Virus record (IMG/VR): IMGVR_UViG_3300044802_000011
Span: 1 to 42,081 of that record
Length of the DNA: 42,081 nucleotides
DNA from: a virus
Reading direction: 5' to 3' (one strand)
Numbering within the stretch: position 1 is the first letter of the stretch; the number at the start of each line of letters is the position of its first letter. The notes beneath the pieces are model-generated. The model saw only the letters and a list, made by a program, of their open reading frames with translations, did not search any database and was not told the origin of the DNA. Of this stretch, positions 11,686-37,575 are shown piece after piece. The position numbers and the translations under genes are program-made.

Positions 11686-12042
11686 ATGGAGTATAAGGAG
11701 TGCGAGCGCTGCTTTGGGTACTGCTGTATAAGCAGCCCTTCGCACCGTTATACTGCCTTGACCGAAGTTGATATACGTGCTATAGCGAAGCATTTGAGAA
11801 TCCCCCTAGAGCGCTTTAGGGAAGAGTATGTAGTGGAGACTCCAGAAGCGCTCATGTATGACCACGCACCATTTGCGAGGGCGCACATCAAGCGCCTTCC
11901 GTCCTCCCCTTGTCCTTTTTTACGCTCAGGACTGTGCGGGATCAATTCAGTTAAGCCTGAGATATGCCGCAATGCCAAGCCGGTTCCATTAATGGGTGAC
12001 GTGACGTGCGCGATGTGGAATAAAGTAAGAGCTGGAGTATAA
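11686..12042 (+). CDS. YkgJ-family cysteine-cluster (zinc/iron-chelating) protein
   Basis: A 118-aa protein with the family signature: an N-terminal CERCFGYCC cluster (Cys6, 9, 13, 14) and a second cluster SSPCPFLRSGLCGIN...KPEICR. Between them lies a region giving TEVDIRAIAKHL and the RFREEYV segment common to YkgJ proteins (PF03692, putative metal-chelating domain). The eight or so cysteines would hold a metal or iron-sulfur centre; function in the family is not well established. It is an unusual gene inside a virion-protein block and could modify or load a structural partner. Translation may be restrained by the hairpin over its ribosome site. It overlaps the fibre start (TAATG). Confidence 0.72.
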   Translation: MEYKECERCFGYCCISSPSHRYTALTEVDIRAIAKHLRIPLERFREEYVVETPEALMYDHAPFARAHIKRLPSSPCPFLRSGLCGINSVKPEICRNAKPVPLMGDVTCAMWNKVRAGV

Positions 12043-17975: not shown

Positions 17976-18005
17976 AGTCCTAGAACCGAAAACCGAACTA
18001 AATCA

Positions 18006-19766: not shown

Positions 19767-20194
19767 AAAATCAGGCATACGGGTTCTTAAATTTACGTCC
19801 CCGCGAGTTTTGGTGGGAGTACACCTTGGTTGAGATAACCGAGATGCTGCAAGCCCATTATGAATGGGAAGAGCGACTTGGTGATATAATTGCGTACGGC
19901 ACAAATGTAGGTTTCACTGGCAAGAAACCGAAGCGCAGAACAGATTCTACTACCAAGAGATCAGTGGAGTCCGACCGGCAGCATCTTCTGAAGATGATGC
20001 GTGGCGACGCTGACCCTGAGCCAGTGGAGCTGACTCCTGAGCTTGTCGAGACTGTTTTTGCCAATGAGGTTAAAGGTGCAAAGCGAGTTGACATCCTACC
20101 CCCTCAAACAGAGCCAGATCAAGATGTAGCGGCTGATGTGAGATATCTTAGGGCATTGGATCGCCTGCTCAAAGAAGAGCACAAGGAGAATTAA
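19739..20194 (+). CDS. Tail assembly chaperone T domain, made by -1 frameshift
   Basis: This frame has no convincing start of its own: the first possible start is a TTG at 19826 without a clear ribosome site. The sequence from the slip site reads WRELKNQAYGFLNLRPREFW, then EYTLVEITEMLQAHYEWEER, a pattern expected for the T part of GT-type chaperones, followed by a charged helical tail. It is best read as the C-terminal part (151 aa) of a 306-aa fusion starting at 19275, equivalent to lambda gpGT. It ends overlapping the tape measure start (TAATG), the standard location. Confidence 0.78.
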   Translation, partial: KWSLDWRELKNQAYGFLNLRPREFWWEYTLVEITEMLQAHYEWEERLGDIIAYGTNVGFTGKKPKRRTDSTTKRSVESDRQHLLKMMRGDADPEPVELTPELVETVFANEVKGAKRVDILPPQTEPDQDVAADVRYLRALDRLLKEEHKEN

Positions 20195-23100
20195 TGACTG
20201 TAGCGCCAATTATTGTACATATCTTGGGTGACACCGCTGAGCTAGAGGCTTCTCTAGCGACTGCAGGTGGCGCGATAAAAGGCTTCGGCGCGGCATTGAT
20301 GGGGATCGGGACCGGACTAACCGCCCTCCTAACCGTTCCTATAGTTGGAATTGGGGCCGCAGCTCTTTTATCAGCAAACAACGTCCAGAAAGCGTACGCT
20401 ATAATTATAGCAGGAACAGGCGCCACAGGAAGCAAACTGGATGGATTAGAGAAACAGTTTGACTCTCTTGCTGCAAGTGTGCCAAATTCATTCACCGATA
20501 CCGCTACCGTTCTCACCACGGTCAACGAGAAACTTGGCTCCATGGGTGTCAACGTCGTTGACATATCCCACAAGATTCTTGACGTGTCGAGGATGACCGG
20601 CGAGAGCGCTACGACTCTTTCTTCTGATTTTACTGCTGCAATATATCAGTGGAAGGATCAGATCAAGAATGTAGACGACTTCATGAACGAGGTGTACTCC
20701 ACCGCGCAGGAAGCTCGCGTTCCCGTCACCACTATCCTAACCGACCTTGATCGCTATGGCCCAGTGATTCGTTCGGCAAACATTCCATTACAAACCGCAA
20801 TTCCAATTATCGGGGAGATTGAGGCTAAAGGCGAAGACGCCACAAGGACTTTCCAGGGCATGGCCTATGCGTGGGCAAACACGGCCAAGATGATTGCCTC
20901 TCCGTCAAAAACCACGCAGGCTACCGTTGACGCTATCACGGAGTCCGCTGCAAAAGCGGGCATTCAACTTACGAGCACCGGCAACGACTTACAAGCGGTT
21001 TTCTATGGTATAAAGAGCGGTATAATCACCGATGCTGAAGCCGCTAACATATTCGGGCCGAGGTTCGCTGATAACATAGACTCGATGATACGGGACGGCA
21101 CGATCTCCGGCGAAGACTTCATCAAGATGACGTCGGGGATGTCGATGAATATTGATGACGTAGGACATCGCACGATCACATTCGCTCAGTCGCTTGATAT
21201 TGTCAGGAATGCGTTTGAAATTGCCATAGACCCACTCGGCGCGAAGATGATCGCAGTCTTCCAGCAGATGCTGCCAGCGGTTATGGGTGCTATTGGGGTT
21301 CTCGGACGACTGATGGATGTATTTGCAGGCTTGCCGCTGCCTGTGGCTGACGTTGTGATGGCCATCGCAGCCTTCGCGGCAGGAATTGGCCCTGTCCTCG
21401 TAGGCACAAGCGCCCTTATATCCGCCGTTGGAAACATTGTTAACGGGTTTTCAAGGCTCATAAATATAGCCTCTACTGGGGCCAGCGCACTTAGTAACTT
21501 CTTTAGCGCCGGTTCTGCGACGACAGCAACAGCGTCAATTGTTGCCGAGACGGGGGCTATAGATGACGAAACCGTCGCTGCTTCAGCATGCGCAGTGTCA
21601 GAGGGGGAGCTGGCCATTCAAAGGGAAGCGGCAACAGCGGCTGTAGTTGAGGCGACTTCAGCAACTATCGCAGAAACCGTAGCCGAAGATGACCTTACTG
21701 CCTCGATTGTCGCAAATGCACTTTCAGATGAGACATTAATCGGAAGCAATACTGTTTTAGCGGGGAGTGCCGATTTAGCGGGCGCCTCGTTAATTACCGA
21801 AGGCGCTGCAGCCGATGAAGCGGCACTATCCGAAGATGCTTTAGCGGTCAGCGCAGGAGTAGCTGATGTAGCTGTAGGAACTGGTCTTGTAGGCGCATTG
21901 GTTAGTCTCTTAGTCACGTTAGGAACCATCGCAGCGGTATTGGCGCCCATCGTGCTTCTCATTGGCACCCTCGCTGCAGGTTTCATTATGGCCTATGAAA
22001 CCTCTTCTACGCTCCGTGATACCATTGCGACCGTAGGTGGCGTATTCGTAACCTTTGGCGGCCAACTGATGGAGGGCATCGGCCTCATTATTCACGGAGA
22101 CTACAAATCAGGTTTCGCAGATTTCCAGAAGGCGTTTACTGACCTGTGGAAAGGGCTTGTGGTAATTGATTGGGACCACATCGGTGAACAGATTGACACC
22201 GAGATAAAGGACGGCATTGCAAACCACAAGGGCGAGATTATGCACGCCCTTGATGGCTTCGAGGCAGAGGCAATTAAGTTCTTCCAGGGTGTTAACTGGG
22301 AGTCAGTCGGCACGGTCGTCGGGCAGGCGTTAGGTACGATGCTTGCCATCGCACTCAACGGTGCCATGACTGCGCTCGGTAGCGCTGCCCAGGGACCAGG
22401 CCAAGTCACCGCTCCACCAGGCTTTACGCAGACCGTAAGTCCCTCCGATGTAACCGCTCAAAACCTCAAGCTAGCGCAAGGAACCTCTGGGCTTGCATAT
22501 AACGCCCAGGGGCAACTAACTGGCGCGATGCAGACGACAGACATGACGACCCAACTTGAGCAGGTTGGCGAGGCTGCTGCAGGCGCCTTCGTAAGAGGTT
22601 TCGAGAAGGGCTTTACGGATGGGCTAAAGAAAGTTAGGTGGGGCGACCTGCTCTGGGGCATTATTAACACCGACTTGTCAACGGGTCAGCAAACCCAATG
22701 GGGCTTCGATCCAGGCAACAGCCCTCTTAAACATTGGATTGACGACATTGGCAGCTGGTGGGATCACATCAACTGGGGGCAGATATTCAACTTCAATAAC
22801 ATTCAGTCCGCCCTTACGAGTGGCTTAGCCGGTCTTGCGAGTGGGGTGGGACACTTATTTGACCCGATAATGACGCCCATCAACAACTTCGTTAGTTGGT
22901 GGAACGGCTTGCACTTCGGGCCGATAGCACTTCCTCAGATCACTTTGCCTGATTTGAACCCGATACACATCCTCGAGGAAGCCCTGCACGCGATCACCAA
23001 TATCCCAAACGATGTTATCGACCTCACTGTTAACCTTGGTGGCGTTGCCATATCAGTTTTACAGGAGTTGCAAGGTATCCTTGATTGGATTGTTCGTCAT

Positions 23101-24270
23101 TTCAGCACGCACGAAATAGAGCTGGATATTAAGATCCCTGGCATGGATATGTTGGAGAAGGTCTATGGCGATTTGATGTATATCGTCAACCACTCCGCAA
23201 TAGTAACCACACTCAAGACAGAAGCGGACTCCCTTATTACGAAATGGAATGATCTCGGCATCAGTGGTAAGTTTGGACCGTGGAGCATTGGCGGCGAAAC
23301 CATACCTTCAGTAGGCTGGGGCGGCTTTGACATACCTTCTGTTGGCTGGCCAGGATTTGACATCCCATCAGTTGGGTGGGGCGGCTTCACGATTCCTCCT
23401 GTTGGGTGGGGCGGCTTCACGATTCCTCCTGTTGGATGGGACGGCTTTACGATTCCTTCTGTAGGTTGGAATGGTTATAACTGGGGCGGTTACGATTGGC
23501 CTGGATTTCATGGAGGGGGTGGTTCCGTTGGAGGCGGTTCCATTGGAGGCGGTTCTTGGACGGTTGGGCCATATACCGCAGGATTTACGCTTGCGGGACA
23601 GAACCTAAGTGCAACCGTTGGTCCTTGGACTTGGGATCTTCCTTCCGTCCCAGTTCCAACAATCCCAATTCCGAACATTGATATAGGCGGCTTTGATGTT
23701 GGAGCGATTAATATAGGCGGTTTCCAGACCGGCACGCACCAAGTTCAAGGGTGGAACACCGGCACGCACCAAGTTCAAGGGTGGAACACCGGCACGCACC
23801 AAGTTCAAGGGTGGTCAACTGGCGATCATCCTGTTAAAGGGTGGTCAACTGGCGAACACCACGTTCAAGGGTGGAACACCGGCGAGCATACTGTTCCGAA
23901 GGTCGTCGTAGAAGAAGATTATTCGTGGAAGGCTCCGCAAATACCTCTGCTCGCTGGAGGCGCTATCATAGGCGCAAGACGCGGCGGCGTTCCAGTACTT
24001 GCAGCCGAAGCGGGGAAACCAGAGCTATTCATCCCGTGGGATCGTGTAGGTGAGGACTGGGGCAACCTACTCAGCACGCTTCCGAGGTTGGCCGGAGGTG
24101 CTATAGTTGGGGCAATGTCTCCGCCGTATATATCTGGCGGCGGGACTGGCACTGCACAACGCGAAGAAAGAATTGTGAATTATCAAGTAAACGTCACGGC
24201 TGACGGCGAGCAGATACAGCGCGAGGTTTTCGCTGCAATTCGTCAGCTTGAGGATTTCCATCATCTTTAG
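20194..24270 (+). CDS. Tape measure protein
   Basis: Sets tail length and is threaded inside the tube; 1358 aa, which would predict a fairly long tail. The N-terminal 300 residues match TP901-like tape measures (AAALLSANNVQKAYAIIIAG, DSLAASVPNSFTDTA, VVDISHKILDVSRMTG). Residues about 360-430 and 560-600 hold hydrophobic, possibly membrane-active segments, with a long Ala-rich helical stretch between. From about residue 1037 the protein changes character: six decapeptide units IPSVGWGGFx, a Gly-rich linker, then five copies of GTHQVQGWNT-type decapeptides, before a C-terminal domain with PVLAAEAGKPELFIPWD. It follows the chaperone frame directly. Confidence 0.85.
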   Translation: MTVAPIIVHILGDTAELEASLATAGGAIKGFGAALMGIGTGLTALLTVPIVGIGAAALLSANNVQKAYAIIIAGTGATGSKLDGLEKQFDSLAASVPNSFTDTATVLTTVNEKLGSMGVNVVDISHKILDVSRMTGESATTLSSDFTAAIYQWKDQIKNVDDFMNEVYSTAQEARVPVTTILTDLDRYGPVIRSANIPLQTAIPIIGEIEAKGEDATRTFQGMAYAWANTAKMIASPSKTTQATVDAITESAAKAGIQLTSTGNDLQAVFYGIKSGIITDAEAANIFGPRFADNIDSMIRDGTISGEDFIKMTSGMSMNIDDVGHRTITFAQSLDIVRNAFEIAIDPLGAKMIAVFQQMLPAVMGAIGVLGRLMDVFAGLPLPVADVVMAIAAFAAGIGPVLVGTSALISAVGNIVNGFSRLINIASTGASALSNFFSAGSATTATASIVAETGAIDDETVAASACAVSEGELAIQREAATAAVVEATSATIAETVAEDDLTASIVANALSDETLIGSNTVLAGSADLAGASLITEGAAADEAALSEDALAVSAGVADVAVGTGLVGALVSLLVTLGTIAAVLAPIVLLIGTLAAGFIMAYETSSTLRDTIATVGGVFVTFGGQLMEGIGLIIHGDYKSGFADFQKAFTDLWKGLVVIDWDHIGEQIDTEIKDGIANHKGEIMHALDGFEAEAIKFFQGVNWESVGTVVGQALGTMLAIALNGAMTALGSAAQGPGQVTAPPGFTQTVSPSDVTAQNLKLAQGTSGLAYNAQGQLTGAMQTTDMTTQLEQVGEAAAGAFVRGFEKGFTDGLKKVRWGDLLWGIINTDLSTGQQTQWGFDPGNSPLKHWIDDIGSWWDHINWGQIFNFNNIQSALTSGLAGLASGVGHLFDPIMTPINNFVSWWNGLHFGPIALPQITLPDLNPIHILEEALHAITNIPNDVIDLTVNLGGVAISVLQELQGILDWIVRHFSTHEIELDIKIPGMDMLEKVYGDLMYIVNHSAIVTTLKTEADSLITKWNDLGISGKFGPWSIGGETIPSVGWGGFDIPSVGWPGFDIPSVGWGGFTIPPVGWGGFTIPPVGWDGFTIPSVGWNGYNWGGYDWPGFHGGGGSVGGGSIGGGSWTVGPYTAGFTLAGQNLSATVGPWTWDLPSVPVPTIPIPNIDIGGFDVGAINIGGFQTGTHQVQGWNTGTHQVQGWNTGTHQVQGWSTGDHPVKGWSTGEHHVQGWNTGEHTVPKVVVEEDYSWKAPQIPLLAGGAIIGARRGGVPVLAAEAGKPELFIPWDRVGEDWGNLLSTLPRLAGGAIVGAMSPPYISGGGTGTAQREERIVNYQVNVTADGEQIQREVFAAIRQLEDFHHL
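23302..23481 (+). repeat. Six 30-bp coding repeats (IPSVGWGGF type)
   Basis: Six contiguous 30-base units in the tape measure gene encode IPSVGWGGFD, IPSVGWPGFD, IPSVGWGGFT, IPPVGWGGFT, IPPVGWDGFT and IPSVGWNGYN. The Trp-Gly pattern would suit a stiff, exposed or membrane-interacting spacer. Units 3-5 are nearly identical at the DNA level, suggesting recent tandem duplication. Confidence 0.85.
23731..23890 (+). repeat. Five 30-bp coding repeats (GTHQVQGWNT type)
   Basis: Units begin at 23731, 23761, 23791, 23821 and 23851, followed by a partial sixth. The first two are identical at all 30 bases and the third differs only at the end, so the array is recent. The encoded decapeptide is G-(T/D/E)-H-x-V-x-G-W-(N/S)-T, putting a His and a Trp in every unit. 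Confidence 0.85.
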
Positions 24271-24287: not shown

Positions 24288-26027
24288 ATGACTGAAACGT
24301 GGGTACTCAAAACGTATGATGGTGAAGTTTATAACCTAAACACAGAGGCAGCGGAGCTCAATTATGACACGGTTTACAATCTTCTGCAAGGGGTGACGGG
24401 GCATCACGGAATGCCAGTCACAATTTTATCCGACGTCGTAGTAAGCATAGCAGGCGCAGAGACGCGCCAAGTGCTACGTGGAATCCGCACCGTATATCTT
24501 CCATTATACATCAGAGGAAAAGACCCACAAGATTTTCATAAGAACCTCGAAAAACTGAGAAGATCGCTTGACCCCATGCATGAATGCCAGCTGTGGGTCA
24601 CTAATGAGGAAGGCGAAACGAGAGTCCTGTATTGCAGGTATAGTAAGGGATTTGAGAACGCCGTTGATGATGACAAGCGCCAGGCTTCATGGATGAATGT
24701 CCCACTTTATGTTGAAGCGGATGACCCCTATTTTTATGACCCTCCAGGCGCGGAAGTTACGCGCATAATCCTTTCAAATCCTTTTGCAGCCGAGTTTCTA
24801 ACTCCTACCGTTGTTTTGCAAAGCCTTACTGCGGACGCAGTCGCGACCAGTTTCGTCTTATATGTAGATTCTGTAGAATACTTTGTAGCAGGCCAGTCAG
24901 TTGAGATTATCAGCGGGGCTGCTGATTACACCCACTATGAAACCTGCGTAATTGATTCTGTAGACCTTACGGCTAACACGATCACTCTAAAAGGTTATCT
25001 TCGCGATGATTTCCTTGTCGCAGACGGCGCATATGTGCAGGTCGTAGACGACACCGAGATATTCGTTTCAACTGACGCCGATGGGCGGGTGCTCAATGAG
25101 GGCTGTAATTATGTGATCTTCTGGATGCGAGGTTGTCCTCCGTGCATAACGGCCTTAAACCAACTTGCGGATATGCAAAAGGCAAATCCAAACATCACGG
25201 TCACAAAAGTAGAAATTCAAGACGCTGATGCCAGTGAACAGGGTATAGGGATGACTGCCGCCAAGATACTTTATCCCGAAGCTTACGAGTTTGCTACGAA
25301 CTGTGGGCCGCCTCCGGCTGCAGGATATCAAGTCATTGATGGGATCATGCCCGCCGTTATTGCGCTCTACCGTAAAGGGGCCTTTATACAGGCGTGGTGT
25401 GGCGTTCACACGACGCAGGTTGATCCGATAGCGACCAATGAACTTGAGGATGCGTGTGGGCCGCGAGTAGCTTGGAGGATCGGCAAGAAGTATTTGGGGG
25501 ACAATATTATTGTTGAGAACAAAGGCGATGCAATCGCGTATCCGGTCTGGACAATTTCTGGACCTGGGAGCAGCCTACATCTCGCAAACGTCACCACTGG
25601 CGACGAGTTTTTATTAGACCACGACATCATCCCTGGCGAAACTGTGGTCGTTGATTCACGCGAAAGTGCTCATACGTGCGGCAGCACGAACCAGGCTGAT
25701 TTTCAAGGGACGGGCTATTGGGCTACTGAGACTTGTCCAACCTGCAAGGGAACGGGGGTGGTGCTCGGCTGCGCTACGTGTGGGGTTTATGAAGTCTGTC
25801 CTACCTGCCACGGAACCAAGACAATCCAGGTCTGGATTCCGTCGGCTAGTGGTAGCATAGCTGATGCGGCAGGGATGTTTAACCTACGTCCGCAAATTGA
25901 TGTAAATAAAAGGGTATTCTGGGGTCTTACCCCTGGCCCGAACGTTATCAAGGTCGAGTTGACCGGCGCCGACTTAACAAATACGTCGGTTCATTTCACG
26001 ATGGTTCAGCGGTATGAGGGTATGTAA
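24288..26027 (+). CDS. Distal tail protein with thioredoxin-like and zinc-finger insertions
   Basis: The 579-aa product begins (about 1-165) and ends (about 395-475, 525-579) as a siphovirus distal tail (Dit) protein: HGMPVTILSD, RTVYLPLYIRG, DDPYFYDPP, then NKGDAIAYPVWTISGPG and PGPNVIKVELTG. Three insertions make it long. About 175-258 is a small beta domain. About 265-372 is thioredoxin-like: the strand NYVIFW, active-site motif GCPPC (Cys283, Cys286), and MPAVIALYRKG with the likely cis-proline Pro355. About 483-511 is a DnaJ-type cysteine region, CPTCKGTG...CATC...CPTCHGT (Cys483, 486, 495, 498, 504, 507), placed in a loop of the C-terminal tail domain. It lies between tape measure and hub, as Dit genes do. 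Confidence 0.8.
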   Translation: MTETWVLKTYDGEVYNLNTEAAELNYDTVYNLLQGVTGHHGMPVTILSDVVVSIAGAETRQVLRGIRTVYLPLYIRGKDPQDFHKNLEKLRRSLDPMHECQLWVTNEEGETRVLYCRYSKGFENAVDDDKRQASWMNVPLYVEADDPYFYDPPGAEVTRIILSNPFAAEFLTPTVVLQSLTADAVATSFVLYVDSVEYFVAGQSVEIISGAADYTHYETCVIDSVDLTANTITLKGYLRDDFLVADGAYVQVVDDTEIFVSTDADGRVLNEGCNYVIFWMRGCPPCITALNQLADMQKANPNITVTKVEIQDADASEQGIGMTAAKILYPEAYEFATNCGPPPAAGYQVIDGIMPAVIALYRKGAFIQAWCGVHTTQVDPIATNELEDACGPRVAWRIGKKYLGDNIIVENKGDAIAYPVWTISGPGSSLHLANVTTGDEFLLDHDIIPGETVVVDSRESAHTCGSTNQADFQGTGYWATETCPTCKGTGVVLGCATCGVYEVCPTCHGTKTIQVWIPSASGSIADAAGMFNLRPQIDVNKRVFWGLTPGPNVIKVELTGADLTNTSVHFTMVQRYEGM

Positions 26028-27532
26028 TGCCAGGGAACACGCTTGTTGATGCCAATTGTGAAATTATCCTGAGAGATGCTAACCTAGAGGATGCGGGTGA
26101 GGTAACGCGGTTTATCCAATGGACGTCGCTCCTCAAGCTGAATGACGTTTCGAGCTGGCAACTGGACGTGCAGACGCAGAACTTCAGGGATTATGGAATT
26201 GACGAGACTATGGGGATCATGTTCAGAAGAGATGGTGAACTCATTCTTGACGGCCCCATTATGCAGATCAAGCAAAGCTTGGTTTCAGGCCAAGAAAAAA
26301 CTTCTATCATTGGGGGCTGTGACTTAGCCCTATTAAAGCCAAGAATCTGTTATCCTGTGGTTAGCGGCCCCATTTGGGATACTAAAGCGGCTGGGGCGGG
26401 GGCTTGGCGTTTTGCAGTGATGCGGTCTGCGGTAGGGATATCCGCCGTGACTATAAAGGACTCTGAGTTTGACACGTCTACAACTGATACTTCTCATCCT
26501 GCCGTGCTCTATGTAGCAACTGCAATAGGTTTCGTTGACGGTAACACCTGTAACGTCATAAACACTAATGGCGCGATACATCCTAGAACGATCGTGGGCG
26601 TCGATTTGAGTGGTAATACAATCACCGTCAGTGATGGTGATTCTACTCCGTGGCCTACAGGCACTATGATCTACCAGACTTCGGGGGGAATCGTTGACGA
26701 TCCGGCGTTTGTGGGCTACGACACTCGCACAGGGCCAGCAGAGAACGTAGCGAAGGAATTGGCTTATTTTAATGCTGGTGCTGGGGCGTGTGTTGACCAG
26801 TTTGGACCTAGAGCTATCCCTTTTCTGGTGGTTGCCCCGTCTACTGGTCGAGGAGATATTGTTACCGCGAATAGTCGCGGAGAGTCCCTTCTGACACAAA
26901 TTCAAAACGTCTGCATAAGCGGGGGGATGAACTTCTCTCTTACACAGCAAGATCAAAGCTTAGTTTTTGATGTGTTTTACGGAAATGACCTTTCAGTTAA
27001 CGAGAAGTTGGTATTCTCCGTTGACGGCGGGAACTTAAAAGATTATGATTATAGTTATGGGCCTCCGGTTGCAAACTTTGTCATGGGCGCCGGTCCGGAT
27101 ACTGGCACATCAAAGCTAATGCTGCCAAGTGGAGATCAAACGTCAATTAACCAATATGGGCGCAGGGAAACATGGATAAGTTCAGGAAGCTCGAAGGCAG
27201 GCGACAACGCTGCCACGATTGCCGCCAATATGGTAGCGGCGAACAATCTCGAACTGGCACAATCGTTGCTAAACTCTTCTCTCACCCTTAGCATACAGGA
27301 AAATGACCAAGTTCGTTATCCGAGAGACTTTAGGCTTGGAGATCGGGTGGGCGTGATGGTCGGAGACATGCTGACGAGTGCAGTGATCTCATACATCCGG
27401 TATGATATCCCCGTAGGAACAGGTGGGGCGCAGGGCTCGGCCATTGAAGCAGCGCTGACCAAGACAATGACGAAGCAGATGCGAATACAGGATGACCAGA
27501 GCAAGCTGTTACGACAAATCACTATGACGTGA
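26027..27532 (+). CDS. Baseplate hub protein, ReqiPepy6 Gp37-like
   Basis: A 501-aa tail-tip protein resembling the siphovirus ReqiPepy6 Gp37-like family (PF14594). Typical parts are an N-terminal beta domain (ANCEIILRDANLEDAGEV, WQLDVQTQNFRDY, GELILDGPIMQIKQSL), a centre with RGESLLTQIQNVCISGGMNF and YDYSYGPPVANFVMGAG, and the C-terminal YPRDFRLGDRVGVMVGDML. Between residues about 134 and 218 a small beta domain interrupts the family pattern (VVGVDLSGNTITVSDGD-type segment). It would sit below the distal tail protein and hold the receptor-binding proteins that follow. Start overlaps the previous stop (TAATG). Confidence 0.72.
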   Translation: MPGNTLVDANCEIILRDANLEDAGEVTRFIQWTSLLKLNDVSSWQLDVQTQNFRDYGIDETMGIMFRRDGELILDGPIMQIKQSLVSGQEKTSIIGGCDLALLKPRICYPVVSGPIWDTKAAGAGAWRFAVMRSAVGISAVTIKDSEFDTSTTDTSHPAVLYVATAIGFVDGNTCNVINTNGAIHPRTIVGVDLSGNTITVSDGDSTPWPTGTMIYQTSGGIVDDPAFVGYDTRTGPAENVAKELAYFNAGAGACVDQFGPRAIPFLVVAPSTGRGDIVTANSRGESLLTQIQNVCISGGMNFSLTQQDQSLVFDVFYGNDLSVNEKLVFSVDGGNLKDYDYSYGPPVANFVMGAGPDTGTSKLMLPSGDQTSINQYGRRETWISSGSSKAGDNAATIAANMVAANNLELAQSLLNSSLTLSIQENDQVRYPRDFRLGDRVGVMVGDMLTSAVISYIRYDIPVGTGGAQGSAIEAALTKTMTKQMRIQDDQSKLLRQITMT

Positions 27533-27538
27533 GGACAA

Positions 27539-28258
27539 ATGGGTATTCCACTGCGTTTTATTCTTCATAGCGGCATAATAAGCGATTTAGAATGGCTGTC
27601 GAGCATGGGATTCGACGAGGCAGGCCCAGTATGCAATATAGAGGACGTTCCGATGACTGCAACGGCCATTCACCGCGCAGGAATCCGATATGCTGCGGTT
27701 AACCCTTTCGCCGACGTGAGTGCAGCTCCTGGCGAAGCAGGCGCACCCCTCGCTCCTGCGTTTCAAGCGTTAAAAAGTGCTCACTGGGATATCGTCGCCG
27801 GTGCTGGAATGAGCGCAGACATCGTGCGAGTTGCCATGAACTACATGCACTTTTGTAGCTATGGCAGTGGAGAAAGCAGCGGAGAAACCAGCGTATATTC
27901 AGCGCCGTGGAACCACCCTGTAGTTGGGCCAAATACCCTTCACGTCGATTATATTGACACATTCAAGAGTAGCAGATGGTATCAATCATGCATAGACATG
28001 ATGGCGGCAGCTGTTGCGGCTGGAAATTGTGGTGAAATTGGAATTATGATTCCCTTATGGGTTGGGTCTATTCTTGAGTCCTCACTATGGATCAACGTAA
28101 TTAATGCAGCGCGGGCGCAAGGCGTTCCTTGTAGCAATGTTTGCTTTTGGGCAGACCAAGTGACGGATGGAACAGAGATACTGAAAACTGACGCAAGCGA
28201 AACACTCAACGGCCTGATAAAATATTACGGGGTGCGTCAGGGGATACAGGGAGAATAA
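27539..28258 (+). CDS. TIM-barrel-like tail protein A
   Basis: A 239-aa protein with alternating strands and helices: LRFILHSGIISDLEWLSSMGF, AIHRAGIRYAAVNPF, AHWDIVAGAGMSADIV, a YSAPWNHPVV motif, then GEIGIMIPLWVG and ARAQGVPCSNVCFWADQ. The layout resembles a glycoside-hydrolase-like barrel but no catalytic pair is certain. It shares its order of motifs with the N-terminal parts of the proteins at 28260 and 32763. As the first gene after the hub it is a candidate receptor-binding or surface-degrading protein. Confidence 0.5.
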   Translation: MGIPLRFILHSGIISDLEWLSSMGFDEAGPVCNIEDVPMTATAIHRAGIRYAAVNPFADVSAAPGEAGAPLAPAFQALKSAHWDIVAGAGMSADIVRVAMNYMHFCSYGSGESSGETSVYSAPWNHPVVGPNTLHVDYIDTFKSSRWYQSCIDMMAAAVAAGNCGEIGIMIPLWVGSILESSLWINVINAARAQGVPCSNVCFWADQVTDGTEILKTDASETLNGLIKYYGVRQGIQGE

Positions 28259-28259
28259 C

Positions 28260-30917
28260 ATGGCGAAAGTGTACGGTATATGGGCCAATTCTTTTTCAAA
28301 TATATCCTCACTTTGGAACATGGGCTTTGCTGATTTTGGTATAGTGAGTGGCAAAGATTCTGGTCCGCCAGGCGGTTTTGTGGGTGCCTGCAATGCCGTG
28401 GGTGCTACACCGTGCCTCCAAAACAGCGACAGCGGCTCTGGGGGGTGCTCTGGTGATTGTGATAATTATTACGCAGGTCTAGCCGGATCAGGACTTCAGG
28501 CAGTTGGTGGTGAATCTGAAGTTGGCCCAGAATATACGGCTATCCAGAATCACCTGATATGCTACAATATGGGTGGGGAAGGAACCGGCGGCGCAAGCGG
28601 CAACAACGATATATTTGGCGGCTACGAGGGCGCTCGCGTATCAGGATACGGCATGGCATCGTATCTTGAAACATACACAGCCAGCAGCATGATTAGTGCA
28701 GATGCGATGGGAGTCGCAGCGGCGGCAAATAAGGCCGCCGGATGCAAAGAGGTTGGCCTTCTCATTGGTTCATGGTCAGATGGCGACTATGGTGCAGACG
28801 CCTCGACCTATGCCGCCATGGTTAACGCATTCGCCAATCACGGCGTAGACTGTGCAGGATTCGCCTACTGGTATGTGCAAGGTGATGGCAGTAGTTTTGG
28901 GGGCAATGACCTCAGCATGATGCAACAGCTCATGGCGTGGTATCCTCCAATAAAAGCAAGCATGAAAGCTCGGTTTGGAGGCGCAGCAGGAACTGGTGCA
29001 GCTCCAGCAACCCCTGCTCAGCTTTACGGCGGTTCAACTCCTACTTGCTGCGCGTTAGGCGGTAGTGAAGTTGTTTGCTTTGTGCGCGGCACCACTGGTA
29101 ACGTTTATATGAAGGCGTATTATGGCAGTGCTTGGCATAATTGGGATGATCTTGGTGGCGTCGTGGGAGCAGGAACCGGTCCAGGTGCAGCTTCTTGGGG
29201 CGGCCAGCGCGTAGACTTATTCGTGGGCGGTGGCGGCGGAGCAGTGTACCATAAAGGCGGCACCACTCCACCGTACGGCGGATGGGAGAATCTGGGAGGT
29301 ACGACCACTTCTGATTGCGGTGCTTGCTCTGATGGAAGCGGAAATGTCTATGTGTTTGTGCGCGGCAGCGACGGTGCGCTTTGGCATAAGGATTATTGGG
29401 GCGGAAAATGGCACGGATGGTATAGCTTAGGTGGGCAACTCCTACCAGGCACCGGCCCTGCTTGTTGCTCCTGGGCCGCTGGAACTATAGACGTATTCGT
29501 TACAGGCACTAACAAAAACGTGTACCACATCCGCACATCTGGCGGTGGAAAGTGGGGGGGCTGGCAAAACTTGGGAGGCACTACGACGAGCACCCCTGGA
29601 TGCGCCACTCCTGGAAGTGGCTCAATTGCTCTATTCGTTCGGGGACAAAACGGTGCGCTTTATGTGCGGGGATTCGGAGGCGGAAAATGGCTAAATTGGG
29701 AAGAACTCGGCGGCAATATGGCCGCAGGGACTGGCCCGGGCGCGTGTTATACGCTCGGTAAGTATCAGGTCTTCGTGGCAGGAACCACGAACGATATCTA
29801 TCACACTTCAGGCAACGGTTCTTGGAGCGCATGGGAAGATATCGGCGGTTCTGTAGCCGTTCCACCGGCGTCACAAGAAGCTAAGGGTGGATCAGGAGCG
29901 ATCCCATCAGGCGCTGCCGGTGGAGGCGGTTCACTTTCGGGTGCTCATATATGGATTGGATTCAAAGAGTCGAATCAATATGCCTGGACTGCCAACGTTA
30001 ACACTTCAGTAACAATCACAGGGCAGGCCGGATACACGGACTCAAAAGGCAACTTTATTGCAGGGAAACCTTACACAGGCAAGCTCTGGCGCTGGGAGCA
30101 GGAATATGCTTCTGGGAAGGGCGGGGCATCGACTCAGATGGGACAGTTTACCCCAAACTCCGACGGCACATTTACGTGGAGTATCACGAGCGCCACCCCA
30201 GAAGAGATACATTACAACGTCGGATTTGTGGCCAGCGATGCAGTGGTTGGAGGCACCAAAGTAGTCGATGTTGCGGGCCATTATGTAACAGAAACAACGT
30301 CGGGATCAACAACCACGACTGCGGCTCACTGGAGCACCGTCACATCGTATATAATCGTAGAGGCAGGATGCCCATTTTGTGCCGAACTTGAAAACGAGTT
30401 AGGGCAAGTGAGTGGGTTCAAATATCAAATTTCAGACGTAAGCCAAGGTGGAAATAACTACGGTTACGGCGGTAACTTCCCTGGTTTAGTCTTGTGCAAC
30501 GGCCAAAAAGTGTCCAGCCCTGGCGGAAGCTACGCCGAGAACGCACAGGCGTTACTTAACGTCATTAGGGCTAATTGCTGGATTCCCGCGTCGAGTTCGA
30601 CATCGGGAGGCGGAACTAAAAAAGTATGGGTAGACCCGACATACAAAACTATTGGTGGGACTACAAAGCCGACTATATGGGCTGCGAAAGAATTGGTGAT
30701 GAAATGGACCACTCCAACTTCATCCGGCACCACAGACAGCACCAACCCGAATACGTCAACGCCTACGATTCCTAAGATTGCACAAACTCCGGCAGGATTT
30801 GAATCCCCTGACGTTTCCCTTACTCCGGTGCTACCCATCCCGCCAGCCGTTGCGGAAGGTATTACGGTTGTTTTGAGAGATCACAAGAAAGCGGCAGGAA
30901 CGAGGCGGCAGAGCTAA
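28260..30917 (+). CDS. Multidomain tail-tip protein: barrel, lectin-like propeller, glutaredoxin-like
   Basis: An 885-aa protein. Residues 1-240 are barrel-like and Cys-rich (GGCSGDCDNYY; EVGLLIGSWSDGDYG; VDCAGFAYWYVQG), related to the 27539 protein. About 255-530 is a beta-propeller like the PLL/PHL lectins, with repeated W..W..LGG, VFVRGSDGALWHK, VFVTGTNKNVYHI strands. About 550-690 is an Ig-like region. About 693-775 is a thioredoxin-fold domain of glutaredoxin type: YIIVEAGCPFC (Cys704, Cys707), then GNFPGLVLCNG with likely cis-Pro741, and a final helix AENAQALLNVI. The tail is Thr/Ser/Pro-rich. It probably binds sugars on the host surface; the redox domain is an unusual addition. Confidence 0.65.
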   Translation: MAKVYGIWANSFSNISSLWNMGFADFGIVSGKDSGPPGGFVGACNAVGATPCLQNSDSGSGGCSGDCDNYYAGLAGSGLQAVGGESEVGPEYTAIQNHLICYNMGGEGTGGASGNNDIFGGYEGARVSGYGMASYLETYTASSMISADAMGVAAAANKAAGCKEVGLLIGSWSDGDYGADASTYAAMVNAFANHGVDCAGFAYWYVQGDGSSFGGNDLSMMQQLMAWYPPIKASMKARFGGAAGTGAAPATPAQLYGGSTPTCCALGGSEVVCFVRGTTGNVYMKAYYGSAWHNWDDLGGVVGAGTGPGAASWGGQRVDLFVGGGGGAVYHKGGTTPPYGGWENLGGTTTSDCGACSDGSGNVYVFVRGSDGALWHKDYWGGKWHGWYSLGGQLLPGTGPACCSWAAGTIDVFVTGTNKNVYHIRTSGGGKWGGWQNLGGTTTSTPGCATPGSGSIALFVRGQNGALYVRGFGGGKWLNWEELGGNMAAGTGPGACYTLGKYQVFVAGTTNDIYHTSGNGSWSAWEDIGGSVAVPPASQEAKGGSGAIPSGAAGGGGSLSGAHIWIGFKESNQYAWTANVNTSVTITGQAGYTDSKGNFIAGKPYTGKLWRWEQEYASGKGGASTQMGQFTPNSDGTFTWSITSATPEEIHYNVGFVASDAVVGGTKVVDVAGHYVTETTSGSTTTTAAHWSTVTSYIIVEAGCPFCAELENELGQVSGFKYQISDVSQGGNNYGYGGNFPGLVLCNGQKVSSPGGSYAENAQALLNVIRANCWIPASSSTSGGGTKKVWVDPTYKTIGGTTKPTIWAAKELVMKWTTPTSSGTTDSTNPNTSTPTIPKIAQTPAGFESPDVSLTPVLPIPPAVAEGITVVLRDHKKAAGTRRQS

Positions 30918-30953: not shown

Positions 30954-32567
30954 ATGACTACGCAACAATGCGTGACAGGCGAGACGAGCATCCCATTCAA
31001 TCAGTCACCAGGGAACGTGATGACGGAAGTTCTCTGGGCGGCAATGATGAAAAACGTGCTCGATACAGGAGTTATAAAGGGTACGGCCATAACGCACACG
31101 CTGGCGGTGGCTCCCAGCACGGGTCTATCCGTAACGGTAGACCTCGGAGAAGCATGGGTTTACGGACATTGGTATCAGAACAGCATAGTTCAGACGCTTG
31201 TGTTTGATCCCAACACCAACGCAGCAGGAACGCGAGCCGATTTAGTCGTATTAGACTGTAAATGGGGCTTAGATGCAGGTATCCACCTGGCAATCGTTAA
31301 AGGCACCCCAGGAGCGGTCTGGCCCAGCGGCAATGGATCGTTGACAGGGACTCCACAAACCACTGATCCGATAACCCTCGTTGGTGTAGAATGGCAGCTT
31401 CCGATTTATCAGGTCAACATTCGTTACCAAGCCACCTCAATTCTAGCTTCTGATCTCACTGATTGGCGAAACTATGTAACAGCAGGAACGGCTAAAAGTG
31501 CCACATACGTCTTGTGCGATAGTGACACAACCAGTCCTGGATGTTCAGCTAGCGCAGATGCATGTGTCCCTGCTGGTTCCCTACACGCAGAAGATTTAAT
31601 CAACAAAGCGCTCAACACGATATCTTCCACATACGGCGGTGGAACGCTACAGCTGTGCGAAGGAACGTATAGGACAAGTGCGCCAATAGTAGTCCCCTCA
31701 AATTGCAACCTTGTAGGGATGGGAAACAACACGCTTATTCAGATTCAGATCGCCGGTGGCGCCGTTCCGGTTATCTCAATTCCTACCCAGACTGATATAA
31801 CGCTCCACGATTTCGCAATCGACTGCGGGGGTAGCTTCAATCCTACATCACCACCTGCAGCGGTCGCAGGAGCTGATGGAATACTCGTAACCGATAGCAT
31901 GAGAGTTAAGATCAAAGACCTTGTGATATCAGGAGCGCGGGGCTTCGGGATAAACCTCGCAAGCACGGCCTCTTCGACGGCTTCTTACGGCCACAGGGTT
32001 GAGGGTTGCCTTATCCAAGGCTCATCTAATGCGGGAATACGACAGACCGGCTGTAGGGGGCGCATAACCAACAATCACCTTACCAATAATCTGAATGGGA
32101 TCATACTCGACGGCACCTCAAGCACGCTTGGCGCCCTTGCGAACGTGATAAGCACGAATACCATTGATCTCAATGCCGAAGTAGGAATTTTGCTAGGAGA
32201 GTCCGGTGCAAATTCTCACTTTGTTCAGCATAACACCATCTCAAACAACGAGATCACCGACAACTGCATCCAAGCAGACAACACGTATGCGTGTGTCTCG
32301 GTTCTCGGCCAGTATGCGATACGGAACTTTATTACTGGCAACCAGGTGGTTGATACGGCGCAGACATACAAGCCACTTTACGGCATCTATCTGGATGCGA
32401 CGGTCAGTTACAACACAGTTATGAACAACGAATGCAGCGCAGCGGCTAAAACCACTGCGAACAACATTGTCTCTGCCGGTAATACGACTTCAGCTAAGTC
32501 ACCAAATTGGCTTCGATTCAACCGAAGCGGCAGTGTAAGCTCAGGAGCTGCGAGCTACGACGACTAG
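30954..32567 (+). CDS. Beta-helix tail spike / receptor-binding protein
   Basis: A 537-aa protein. Residues 1-190 form a virion-attachment part (VMTEVLWAAMMKNVLDTGV, WVYGHWYQNSIVQTL, LPIYQVNIRYQATSI) resembling the attachment domains of other phage minor tail proteins. Residues about 195-520 read as a right-handed parallel beta-helix of the pectate-lyase-like kind, with repeated short rungs such as NNHLTNNLNGIILDG, NEITDNCI and NFITGNQVVD, and the opening GGGTLQLCEGTYRTSAPIVV. Such spikes bind or cleave polysaccharide. Catalytic residues are not identifiable with certainty. TTGGAGGAG precedes the ATG. Confidence 0.7.
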   Translation: MTTQQCVTGETSIPFNQSPGNVMTEVLWAAMMKNVLDTGVIKGTAITHTLAVAPSTGLSVTVDLGEAWVYGHWYQNSIVQTLVFDPNTNAAGTRADLVVLDCKWGLDAGIHLAIVKGTPGAVWPSGNGSLTGTPQTTDPITLVGVEWQLPIYQVNIRYQATSILASDLTDWRNYVTAGTAKSATYVLCDSDTTSPGCSASADACVPAGSLHAEDLINKALNTISSTYGGGTLQLCEGTYRTSAPIVVPSNCNLVGMGNNTLIQIQIAGGAVPVISIPTQTDITLHDFAIDCGGSFNPTSPPAAVAGADGILVTDSMRVKIKDLVISGARGFGINLASTASSTASYGHRVEGCLIQGSSNAGIRQTGCRGRITNNHLTNNLNGIILDGTSSTLGALANVISTNTIDLNAEVGILLGESGANSHFVQHNTISNNEITDNCIQADNTYACVSVLGQYAIRNFITGNQVVDTAQTYKPLYGIYLDATVSYNTVMNNECSAAAKTTANNIVSAGNTTSAKSPNWLRFNRSGSVSSGAASYDD

Positions 32568-32595: not shown

Positions 32596-32766
32596 TTGGA
32601 AGCACAGCAGAGATGGTTCGACGCGCATAAGACCCTCCACATCACCAACGATGCACATTCAGCCATATTACGTTTCGCTGGAAAACTGCAGCTTGAAAGG
32701 GGAGAGTTTGTTAGCATCTCGGCGGCTATAGAAGAGTTGGCACGGAGAGCGTTAGAAGACATATGA
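32596..32766 (+). CDS. Small ribbon-helix-helix-like protein (TTG start)
   Basis: A 56-aa frame in the 195-base gap between the spike and the next tail protein. The sequence KTLHITNDAHSAILRFAGK, then GEFVSISAAIEELARRAL, has the short strand, helix, turn, helix pattern of ribbon-helix-helix DNA-binding proteins of the Arc/MetJ/CopG kind. Its stop overlaps the next ATG (ATGA), suggesting coupling. A GAGGGGG stretch lies upstream of the TTG, the only usable start. It could be a small regulator or antitoxin-like protein; no partner toxin is visible. Confidence 0.5.
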   Translation: MEAQQRWFDAHKTLHITNDAHSAILRFAGKLQLERGEFVSISAAIEELARRALEDI

Positions 32767-34661
32767 GATACGAACTGCACGGCGCGACATTCAGTGACAT
32801 ATCGTGGGCCGCTAACAACGGCATAGATGCGCTGGGCCTTATTGCTACAGCCACTGACACCTACGACGCCACGTTAGCTGCGATCCATAGCGCAGGAATG
32901 GAAGCAGGATTAAACGTTTTTAATAACGGCGAAGCTCCGCTTGGCTCCAGTGGCGAGCAGTACGATGCGTATATTCAGGATATAGCTGCAGCAGGGTGGG
33001 ATTACATTTGTGGTGACTCAGTTGCTGGTGACGTCGTAAACACCATACGGAAATATATTCCATTCGTCAACCACGCAGGGGACATCGGAGGATTTCAACT
33101 CAGGGCGTGGCAGCCGCCGTGGAACCATCCGGTTGATGGCACCTATCCTCACCATGATTATATCTATACCTGGGTGAGCGGTTCGACTTACAACAGCTTG
33201 GACTCAACAGTGGCAGCCCTGGCGGAAGCCGCACAGAATGCAAGTGCAGTCGCTGGACGTTTAGGGGTCGTAATCAGCTCAGCATTGCCCTCGAACGTAG
33301 GCACTTGGGTAAGAACCATTGAGGCTGCTTCGGCAGCCGGTGCGACTGTTGATACTGTGGTGCTCACTACCGATATTACCTCAGACGTTGTAGACGCTGT
33401 ACAGACCGGCGTTCTTGGGCCAATACTTACACAGTTGCAGGCAGTTTATCCACCGAATACTCCGGTAGTTGTTCCGCCCACTGGCACGACTGCGACTGCT
33501 ATGACTGCTACGAATAATGCGACCAGTCCTGAAGCGGTGAACACTTCTTTTTCCATCTCTGGAACGTTAAAGACCGGCGGCGTAGGGTTAGGAAGCAAGA
33601 CAATTTCAATCTATAGGAACGATGCTCAGAGCAACCAAAGCCTGATAGCAACTCCTTCCACTGACGGAAGCGGTAACTTTGCGGCCTCCGAGAGTGAGGC
33701 AGTAGCCGGTAATTATTCTTATAGCTGTATGTTTGCAGGCGACAGCACGTATGACACTTCTTCAGCTTCCACAAGCGTCACCATAGCCACGCAGGTTATC
33801 CCACCAAAGCCAGTTGTACCTATCGCTACAAGCACCCATCCTGTGATGTGCTCTGGGGGGGCAAACACTTTGGATGTGTTTTGCAAAGGTGGAAACACGT
33901 CGCTTTATCACGTTGGCGGCACTGGCTCATCGTGGGGCTCCTGGGCCGACCTCAGCACAAGCACCTTTATGTCCTCCCCTGGTTGCTGTGCGCCACAGTC
34001 AGGCCAGCTTGTAGCTTTAGTTAGGGGTAACGACAGCGCCCTATATTCTATGTCATATTACAGCGGTGCTTGGCACGCATACGATGACCTGGGAGGGACC
34101 ATCACTTACGGGCCAGGAGGCAGCGCGTACGGTAACGGCGTTCAGGATATCTACGTGGTAGGAACGACCGGAGCGCTCTGGCACATGCGGTATATCCCAG
34201 GTTCAGGCTACTCAGTATTCCAAAATTTAGGTGGGATCTGCTACTCTGAGCCAGCAGCCACGTCTCCGGACAGCAACCATTACGCCGTATATGTTCGCAA
34301 CTCTTCCGGAACGGTAAGCCAAGCCTTTTACGGCGGTTCGTGGGGATGGACAACCATTGGCGGCGCAAACATGCTCGCGGGAACCGGCCCAGGATGTTGC
34401 TCTGGTGGTTCTGCGTATCACATTTTCGCCAACGTAGGCAACAGCTTATACCACACTCAGGGCTCAGGCGGGGGCGCCTGGTCGGGATGGGAGAATATCG
34501 GTTGTCCTATTGGCGGAGCGATCACCTCGTCACCCAGCGCAGCGATGGTTGGAAGCACTTGTCACGTAGTTGCGCGAGGCAATGATAAGGCAGTCTGGCA
34601 CATTTCCGGAACGACCGGAGCGTGGGGACAATGGGCGTCGATAGGCGGATTGATACCGTGA
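32763..34661 (+). CDS. Barrel, Ig-like and lectin-like propeller tail protein
   Basis: A 632-aa protein. About 1-235 is a third copy of the barrel-like domain (YELHGATFSDISWAANNGID, AAIHSAGMEAGLNVF, AAGWDYICGDSVAGDVV, QPPWNHPVDG). About 240-350 is an Ig-like domain of the Big type (FSISGTLKTGGVGLGSK, GNYSYSCMFAGDSTYD). About 350-632 is a PLL-like beta-propeller (LDVFCKGGNTSLYHVGG, LVALVRGNDSALYSM, IYVVGTTGALWHM, VVARGNDKAVWHISG). Domain order resembles the 28260 protein without the redox part, so the two probably arose by duplication. Likely a host-surface binding protein. Confidence 0.62.
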   Translation: MRYELHGATFSDISWAANNGIDALGLIATATDTYDATLAAIHSAGMEAGLNVFNNGEAPLGSSGEQYDAYIQDIAAAGWDYICGDSVAGDVVNTIRKYIPFVNHAGDIGGFQLRAWQPPWNHPVDGTYPHHDYIYTWVSGSTYNSLDSTVAALAEAAQNASAVAGRLGVVISSALPSNVGTWVRTIEAASAAGATVDTVVLTTDITSDVVDAVQTGVLGPILTQLQAVYPPNTPVVVPPTGTTATAMTATNNATSPEAVNTSFSISGTLKTGGVGLGSKTISIYRNDAQSNQSLIATPSTDGSGNFAASESEAVAGNYSYSCMFAGDSTYDTSSASTSVTIATQVIPPKPVVPIATSTHPVMCSGGANTLDVFCKGGNTSLYHVGGTGSSWGSWADLSTSTFMSSPGCCAPQSGQLVALVRGNDSALYSMSYYSGAWHAYDDLGGTITYGPGGSAYGNGVQDIYVVGTTGALWHMRYIPGSGYSVFQNLGGICYSEPAATSPDSNHYAVYVRNSSGTVSQAFYGGSWGWTTIGGANMLAGTGPGCCSGGSAYHIFANVGNSLYHTQGSGGGAWSGWENIGCPIGGAITSSPSAAMVGSTCHVVARGNDKAVWHISGTTGAWGQWASIGGLIP

Positions 34662-35442: not shown

Positions 35443-36534
35443 ATGACATACAGAACAGGGACTAAGCGGCTCAACTACTCGGTCTGGGGTTGTTGCTATG
35501 CTCCAGGTCAAGGGTGGGACACGCATATGCAGCCAACCGACGGCAGCGGATCAGTGAATACAAGGGACTGTGACACTGGTGCTTTAGACCCTATGAACAC
35601 TGGCTCCAGCGATATGATCTCGTACATCAAGAACAACGGCTGGGATGTGGTGCTTACCCCAACAGGTTACGAATTTGAGAATCCAAATCACGCCTCGAGC
35701 AGGGCTGGATACACGATAATTCAGGACTTCATAGAAACCTACGTTAACGTGATGGATGACAACGGCATAAAGTGGTGGCTTGAGATTACGCCTGTGTCGT
35801 CAGATTACGATAATTTCACCTATCAAACCACAGCCTCAACATATGAATCAGCCGCAGGGCCATTCCTGACCAATATAGAGAACAATCATAGCACAAACTT
35901 CCAGGGCTATATGTTTGAGCTGGCATACGAGGCGTTCGTTGAATGGCTAGGTGCGCGAACAAGTTTCACAGTTTCAAATAAAGATTTCACAGGTTTTGCT
36001 GACACTACAATGATGGACACGGCTGCCACAAACTGCCTCAAATTGCCCAACGGAAGCCTTGCGAGCATACAACGTCGGTGCAGCTATCTTGATGAGGTTA
36101 TGGTTGAGATGCTGTGGGGTGGAATGACTGAAGACTGGATAACTGGGTTGCCGGTTGTCTTAGGCTATTATCCGAACATGAATATAACCCTAAATGTTGA
36201 CGAGGTATGCCGGACAAATACTTGGAACGATGCTCCGCTCCAAGGTTTTCAAGTTGAAGGGACTACCGACACTGACTGGTGGTATGACTCAGCCGTAGCT
36301 GACAGTTGCTGGGCCGAACGGCAATGCGCCCTGCAACGGTGCCATCAGATTTATGAAGTGCTGGTTGGTTTAACGGGCGCACCGTTCAAAGGGATGTGCT
36401 ATGACTTTGGAGCTCCTGTCTGGCCTGACATGGGCATGGGCAGCCCCGACATATCATATTTCCTAGAATTTGTAGACAACTTTGGCTTTACTCAATTAGC
36501 ACAAACAGTCAATACGTCGGTTACATTAGCGTGA
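35443..36534 (+). CDS. Unknown tail-cluster protein, barrel-like type 2, copy A
   Basis: A 363-aa protein of unknown family with alternating strands and helices: ISYIKNNGWDVVLTPTGYEF, NVMDDNGIKWWLEITPVS, a YESAAGPFLTNIENNHSTNF motif followed by QGYMFELAYEAFVEW, and GYYPNMNITLNVDEV. The layout and conserved acids (LEITP, FELAYE) suggest a glycosidase-like TIM barrel, but no named family fits. It shares its GPFLTxI..NH...F.G region with the next gene at 36541. Cysteines are frequent (WGCCYAPG). Placement in the tail-fibre cluster suggests action on the host envelope. Confidence 0.45.
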   Translation: MTYRTGTKRLNYSVWGCCYAPGQGWDTHMQPTDGSGSVNTRDCDTGALDPMNTGSSDMISYIKNNGWDVVLTPTGYEFENPNHASSRAGYTIIQDFIETYVNVMDDNGIKWWLEITPVSSDYDNFTYQTTASTYESAAGPFLTNIENNHSTNFQGYMFELAYEAFVEWLGARTSFTVSNKDFTGFADTTMMDTAATNCLKLPNGSLASIQRRCSYLDEVMVEMLWGGMTEDWITGLPVVLGYYPNMNITLNVDEVCRTNTWNDAPLQGFQVEGTTDTDWWYDSAVADSCWAERQCALQRCHQIYEVLVGLTGAPFKGMCYDFGAPVWPDMGMGSPDISYFLEFVDNFGFTQLAQTVNTSVTLA

Positions 36535-36540
36535 GGCATC

Positions 36541-37575
36541 ATGACGCTCAATATAAGTTACCCTCAAAAGCGCCAAACCGGAGGCGCAATATTCGGATGG
36601 AGCGGCGCCGGTAACGCAACGACTGCGGATTATAATTATGCAGCGGCTAATAACATCACGGTTGGGTTAGATTGCAGCACCACTGATGCGAATGCTATCT
36701 ACAATTACACCTACAGCAGCGGTTCACTCACTACGTTTTACAACAACTGTATAGCACCCCTTGAAGCTAAAGGGATATACTGGACTTTAGAGCTAGAATA
36801 TTTTTGGGCTGGCTCGTGGCTTGATTTGAATACCCCGTGGAACATGCCACCATATCCAGAGTCGTGGTTCTCAGGAACGCCGAACTCGTGGGATGCGGTT
36901 TTTGGTCCATTCTTGACATGGATTTTCGACAACCACAACGACTACTTTGCGGGTCCACACTATGAAGGTGGTAATTGGAATATGTGGGCATACCTCGCTG
37001 ACAAATGCGCGGGGCATTCCCCATGCTGTTTTAAGAGTGGGGGTCGTGGCGGGCGGCCTGCTTTTGGTGGAAGCTATAGTCCTTGGATCGAAACGGGCGA
37101 AGCAGCCGTTCAAGGCGTGACGATATGCTATTGCACAGGAACAGACTCGAATGGCAATCCGGTTCAGCACACGGAGCAAGATTTTACCTTGCTGGTTCCT
37201 GAGATAGAATTTGAGATTTACACGCCATATATGCTCTATGACGGGTGCCTTCCGTGGATGGCGGCGGTTGTTGGGGTTCCGGCGTATGCTAAGACGCGAA
37301 TGGGAATCAATTTTGACCAAGTGGGTTCACCATCAAATACTAGCAGTGACTGGTGGCTACCCTCCGGTATAACCATCAGCACCAGAGCGCGTGCGGAACA
37401 ACTCGGAGCCTTGCAGAAGTTCAATTATATCCGCGACTTATATGGGGCGTTCGACTGGTATGACGTTTGTTACCAGAATTATCAGGGCGACTTCAGTTCA
37501 GGGGGCTACGATTGGTATGATAGTCTCGGCATCATACGCCCTGGCACCTCGCAGTCATTATCGGTTAACCTTTAG
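36541..37575 (+). CDS. Unknown tail-cluster protein, barrel-like type 2, copy B
   Basis: A 344-aa protein paralogous to the previous one: LEAKGIYWTLELEYFW matches its NGIKWWLEITPV stretch, and VFGPFLTWIFDNHNDYFAGPHYEGG matches its PFLTNIENNH stretch. It carries unusual Cys-Gly-rich loops (HSPCCFKSGGRGGRP; ICYCTGTDSNGNP). The C-terminal half has LVPEIEFEIYTPYMLYD and FNYIRDLYGAFDWYDV. GTGAGGC precedes the ATG, six bases after the previous stop. Likely an enzyme-like or binding protein at the tail tip; function unknown. Confidence 0.45.
   Translation: MTLNISYPQKRQTGGAIFGWSGAGNATTADYNYAAANNITVGLDCSTTDANAIYNYTYSSGSLTTFYNNCIAPLEAKGIYWTLELEYFWAGSWLDLNTPWNMPPYPESWFSGTPNSWDAVFGPFLTWIFDNHNDYFAGPHYEGGNWNMWAYLADKCAGHSPCCFKSGGRGGRPAFGGSYSPWIETGEAAVQGVTICYCTGTDSNGNPVQHTEQDFTLLVPEIEFEIYTPYMLYDGCLPWMAAVVGVPAYAKTRMGINFDQVGSPSNTSSDWWLPSGITISTRARAEQLGALQKFNYIRDLYGAFDWYDVCYQNYQGDFSSGGYDWYDSLGIIRPGTSQSLSVNL

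Follow-up and report, generated by a model that had tools for sequence, protein, structure and literature searches.

Structural block and tail genes of the window

The window, the whole 42,081-nucleotide stretch analyzed here, is a 42-kb IMG/VR record (IMGVR_UViG_3300044802_000011) of an uncultured phage, and all predictions rest on this one genome. It contains a siphovirus structural block in which terminase, portal, protease, and capsid genes are followed by tail genes. The tail genes are ordered as the tape measure protein, the distal tail protein (Dit), a Gp37-like tail protein, and a run of adhesin-like genes. Because the tape measure gene precedes them, the downstream genes are at the tail-tip position.

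20194-24270, + strand: tape measure protein (phrog_1272, E=4.6e-21)
24288-26027, + strand: distal tail protein (Dit), carrying two inserts (phrog_106, E=2.8e-27; phrog_33 Dit, E=2.1e-12)
25089-25472, + strand: thioredoxin-like insert in Dit, residues 268-395, CPPC at 283-286, IMPAVIALYRKG (phmmer against the PDB; without counterpart in three actinophage Dits)
25710-25832, + strand: second Dit insert, a Cys-rich zinc finger of DnaJ/anti-TRAP type in the C-terminal portion of the protein, residues 475-515 (CPTC, CATC, CPTC)
26027-27532, + strand: Gp37-like tail protein, tail-associated/Tal-like (PF14594, E=3.7e-20; phrog_538, E=1.8e-30)
27539-28258: 239-residue protein directly upstream of the 885-residue adhesin, a relative of its N-terminal domain (blastp)
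28260-30917, + strand: 885-residue tail adhesin, putative receptor-binding protein (open reading frame; position downstream of the tape measure, Dit, and Tal-like genes; domain matches)
32763-34661, + strand: 632-residue paralogue with N-terminal domain, Ig-like domain, and PLL propeller (blastp; PF16640, E=0.0034)

Several other proteins of the window have distinctive sequences. A 1541-residue protein (12042-16667, + strand) is composed in part of numerous degenerate repeats of the ATATFNANAxLVGVG type, which look related to those of an 890-residue protein (37584-40256), and is directly preceded by a 118-residue open reading frame (11686-12042, + strand) with 8 Cys (6.8%), including a CERC motif. 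The N-terminus of a 537-residue protein with 13 Cys (30954-32567, + strand) matches virion structural families, and the protein gives a weak pectate-lyase-like (β-helix) match (E=0.0014). Two Cys-rich proteins of 363 and 344 residues (35443-37575, + strand), with weak mutual similarity in blastp within the window, appear glycoside-hydrolase-like by eye and have no family match.

Viral contig scans with the 885-residue protein, Dit, each redox domain, the MCP, and alignments of the MCP, propeller, and N-terminal domain revealed no tail-tip relative, with the limitation that scanning by short exact or degenerate peptides can miss diverged relatives. They returned only two close records, L006 (MCP 100%) and L007 (MCP 76%), along with distant MCPs near 37%. 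L006 (IMGVR_UViG_3300047586_000032, 22 kb), with an identical MCP and 100% DNA identity over 2363 bases from window position 18000, is the same virus in another record and stops short of Dit; neither L006 nor L007 extends to the tail tip. Sixteen longer MCP-related viral records contain no Dit match, and the MCP scan of genome contigs gave no pointer to the host.

The 885-residue adhesin and its predicted glutaredoxin-like domain

The 885-residue protein is predicted to be a tail adhesin in which a sugar-binding lectin propeller, an Ig-like spacer, and a glutaredoxin-like domain lie between an N-terminal domain and a Ser/Thr/Pro-rich C-terminal end.

28260-28964, + strand: N-terminal domain, residues 1-235, common to the 239-residue (27539-28258) and 632-residue (32763-34661) proteins (blastp, alignment)
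29034-29894, + strand: PLL/PHL-type lectin β-propeller, residues 259-545 (phmmer against the PDB)
29940-30299, + strand: Ig-like linker domain, residues about 561-680 (sequence inspection)
30321-30593, + strand: predicted glutaredoxin-like, thioredoxin-fold domain, residues 688-778 (NCBIfam, model, fold searches)
30369-30380, + strand: CPFC active-site-type motif, Cys704/Cys707 (translation)
30480-30482, + strand: Pro741, in the place of the thioredoxin-fold cis-Pro (translation; alignment with the VP of glutaredoxins)

The N-terminal domain, without a match in Pfam or the PDB, may be TIM-barrel/hydrolase-like on our own reading of its sequence. The propeller is homologous across its repeats to PLL/PHL lectins, with PHL (5mxe, E=4.1e-55) and PLL (5c9l, E=9.4e-46) as the best PDB matches in phmmer, and the Ig-like linker has no confident family match. 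A tblastn search of the propeller against 50,697 phage records gave no match, and the 885-residue protein and its parts were likewise unmatched in phage records. A search of 396 genomes belonging to the same phylum as a Bryobacterales MAG (G024) matched the propeller alone, with no hit to the glutaredoxin-like domain. The 632-residue paralogue also lacks this domain.

The initial annotation had described a glutaredoxin-like thioredoxin-fold domain at 30330-30590, corresponding to residues 691-777, and translation of 28260-30917 confirms its CPFC (Cys704/707) and the Pro741 within NFPGLVLCNG. The elements follow the order β-CPFC-α-β-[short loop]-Pro-β-β-α: strand SYIIVE, CPFC, helix AELENELGQ, strand FKYQISDV, and a short Gly-rich loop, then NFPGLVL with Pro741, the hairpin CNGQKV, and helix YAENAQALLNVIRANC. 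The final helix of the annotation is also recovered, with the terminal segment SYAENAQALLNVIRANCW predicted helical in the AlphaFold2 model. CPFC (704-707) follows predicted strand 1 and precedes helix 1, placing the CxxC at the start of that helix, and Pro741 is at the aligned place of the proline before strand 3, as judged from sequence only. The Cys704-Pro741 spacing of 37 is slightly short relative to the roughly 40-44 of the compared glutaredoxins, and helix 2 is therefore read as eroded. Glutathione-binding motifs are replaced, with FPG in place of TVP and PGGSYAEN in place of GG(C/S)DD, and additional cysteines are present at 746 and 773.

Family searches point to glutaredoxins at low scores. 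The NCBIfam matches of the domain are exclusively glutaredoxin families (n=3; E=0.0023, 0.017, and 0.044), all far under their curated cut-offs; the top match, mycoredoxin TIGR02200 (E=0.0023), reaches 18.3 bits against a cut-off of 89.5. Among ten shuffles that keep CPFC, one matches a single glutaredoxin family, at 0.12; the domain's own matches stand above these controls. With a home-made profile built from eight glutaredoxins, the domain (23.4) scores within the range of CPFC-keeping shuffles (median 20.9, best 32.4), and this lack of discrimination leaves the sequence evidence outside CPFC thin. CPxC arises by chance in 2% of whole-protein shuffles; a hydrophobic strand before the fixed CPFC combined with a Pro/β-hairpin motif after it arises in 0.28%, an optimistic figure because the motif was defined after the sequence had been inspected.

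Structure prediction provides the stronger line, with a weight limited by low model confidence. The single-sequence, template-free AlphaFold2 model has a pLDDT of 55 and a pTM of 0.44. VIA-align against the PDB gave thioredoxin folds in 50 of 50 rows among the matches listed, the best with a Z of 6.5 and an rmsd of 2.8 over 80 residues. With the same model, Foldseek returned thioredoxin/glutaredoxin folds in most leading PDB rows, ArsD among the matches, and glutaredoxins/thioredoxins for nearly every named row of BFVD, a viral library. The annotated fold is supported by the fold matches, the CxxC, and the proline placement, but with a model at a pLDDT of only 55. We consider it quite probable that the domain adopts a thioredoxin fold and, given that fold, somewhat more likely than not that it is redox-active.

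Two inserts in Dit and the cysteines of the tail tip

The identification of Dit is firm. The window Dit possesses an N-terminal tail-ring domain and a C-terminal Dit domain, is encoded after the tape measure gene, and matches Pfam SPP1_Dit just under the cut-off. Alignment with three actinophage Dits reveals two clean inserts, one spanning about residues 175-405 and the other about 466-530. The former harbors the thioredoxin-like segment at 25089-25472, which agrees with the second thioredoxin-type domain that the annotation had placed about 5 kb from the first. It carries CPPC and IMPAV and matches a PDB thioredoxin in phmmer (E=0.02) along with many weaker thioredoxins, and it misses the Pro-hairpin pattern of the glutaredoxin-like domain by one residue. 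Its AlphaFold2 model is too weak to use (pLDDT 38, best Z 4.0); complex I B8, mL43, KaiB, and TrxP, all of which we take to be thioredoxin-like, are among its weak matches (Z ≤4.0).

The second insert, an addition to the annotation, resembles a DnaJ-type zinc finger. It matches RtpA (anti-TRAP; E=4.8e-6, under the cut-off) and DnaJ_CXXCXGXG (E=0.0025) and is 39% identical to bacterial DnaJ over 64 residues, with three CxxC motifs, two of them CxxCxG, against four in DnaJ. In a search of 299 genomes of the phylum that includes a Bacillota MAG (G031), its matches were DnaJ proteins only. This zinc finger is probably metal-bound. DnaJ-type zinc fingers have been reported to show thiol-disulfide activity, which would fit a picture of thiol exchange at the tail tip. 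Three thiol modules are thus predicted in the tail tip: the glutaredoxin-like domain, the Dit thioredoxin-like insert, and the Dit zinc finger.

From Dit to position 37575, the eight proteins of the tail tip contain 91 Cys in 4080 residues (2.2%), against 46 in 8500 (0.54%) in the other virion-region proteins (Fisher p=3e-16), and the share is still 2.0% with motif cysteines left out. This agrees with the Cys-rich loops that the annotation had noted in neighboring tail proteins. The enrichment fits a disulfide-stabilized extracellular adhesion device, and the tip cysteines would offer resident thiol-exchange domains possible substrates; it may also reflect nothing beyond ordinary structural disulfides.

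Candidate roles and known systems

We tentatively read these tail-tip proteins as "evolved" forms equipped with modules for thiol-disulfide exchange, which most likely serve disulfides of the tip itself, so that the substrate of these domains would be the tail itself. The cytoplasm in which tail proteins fold is reducing and leaves their thiols free. Many tip cysteines would then be oxidized after assembly or lysis, and the resident thioredoxin-fold domains would exchange disulfides in cis or with neighbors, acting as a tethered oxidase/isomerase. The adhesins would thereby reach the right disulfides or form reversible inter-subunit bonds. A fuller version, a siphovirus tip with its own thiol-disulfide machinery (the thioredoxin-like and zinc finger domains of the Dit ring plus the glutaredoxin-like domain of the lectin adhesin) forming, shuffling, or releasing disulfides, either within the tip or from the tip to the surface of the host, is possible but doubtful. 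We favor self-directed exchange, with envelope-directed exchange as the next mechanism of interest and an inert spacer as the plain alternative.

That plain alternative, a redox-inert thioredoxin-fold module that is simply a compact domain for binding or spacing, with its Cys pair as a structural disulfide, is somewhat unlikely. Small stable domains are often swapped into tail adhesins, evolved Dits usually bear binding modules, and the eroded helix 2 with its shortened Cys704-Pro741 spacing (37 against roughly 40-44) would suit an inert domain, but CPFC and the proline are both intact, and these serve catalysis rather than scaffolding. Should the domain instead act on the host envelope, it would reduce a surface protein or low-molecular thiol, or form a mixed disulfide with one, triggering the tail or fixing binding irreversibly. 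This role would suit a domain carried by a lectin-bearing adhesin in contact with the cell surface, and the closest family match, mycoredoxin, is in keeping with it; the Milano authors also name a host-surface reducing agent among possible triggers of tail disulfide reduction (PMC10811340). We regard such a role as unlikely: no surface thiol target is known, and a free virion lacks an electron source for repeated reduction, although one exchange per domain could still occur.

A domain that is no thioredoxin fold at all, but a Gly-rich C-terminal domain with CPFC by chance, would account for the low model confidence, the absence of a Pfam match, and a profile score inside the range of CPFC-keeping shuffles. 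Thioredoxin folds are unanimous in VIA-align and near-unanimous in two structure libraries, and the family matches are exclusively glutaredoxin, which makes this quite improbable. Metal binding, in which CPFC together with Cys746 would hold an Fe-S cluster, zinc, copper, or arsenic in the manner of some thioredoxin-fold proteins and lambda gpL-like tail hubs, would be in line with ArsD among the fold matches, with the Fe-S clusters known in tail tips, and with the probably metal-bound Dit zinc finger. The glutaredoxin-like domain has no metal-family match, however, and CPxC is the motif typical of dithiol glutaredoxins; we hold this role to be very unlikely.

The glutaredoxin-like domain shares with glutaredoxins/mycoredoxins (TIGR02200) and NrdH redoxins the CPxC, the predicted strand and helix order, the Pro before strand 3, and a length of about 90 residues. 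It differs in the short Gly-rich loop replacing helix 2, in the extra Cys746 and Cys773, and in being part of a virion adhesin, whereas theirs is a free cytosolic enzyme. Likewise, the propeller has its repeats in common with the PLL/PHL lectins of Photorhabdus but is embedded here in a phage tail adhesin. The lambda gpL-type tail-tip hub (Tam et al. 2013, cited in PMC11945409), with its iron-sulfur cluster, is a further case of a cofactor-like module built on cysteines at the tail tip; its Fe-S site has four Cys and lies in the hub, without a thioredoxin fold.

Tail cysteine chemistry, proposed to control mechanical state, has precedents in phage Milano, with disulfide networks in tail and baseplate and contraction induced by DTT with guanidine (PMC10811340), and in phage T1, with a disulfide network along the tail tube (PMC11945409). 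Theirs are structural disulfides, and the Milano paper makes no mention of thioredoxin or an oxidoreductase (PMC10811340). The initial annotation knew of no described system of this sort; given Milano and T1, this is too strong for tail disulfide chemistry in general. As to tail-borne thioredoxin-fold domains, our search of the open-access literature gave no report of a tail protein with a thioredoxin- or glutaredoxin-like domain. The Milano authors leave open the natural reductant of the tail disulfides in infection (PMC10811340), and a tail with its own thiol-exchange domains, if true, would be a direct answer in one system. Siphophage evolved Dits and adhesion proteins with inserted carbohydrate-binding modules are well described (PMC10688798, PMC9692632), and the window shares with them a tail-tip protein enlarged by foreign inserts and a lectin, here in the neighboring adhesin. 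The Dit inserts are thioredoxin-like and DnaJ-type zinc finger modules rather than carbohydrate-binding ones; redox modules, if confirmed, would thus join sugar-binding domains among the acquisitions of evolved Dits and adhesins.
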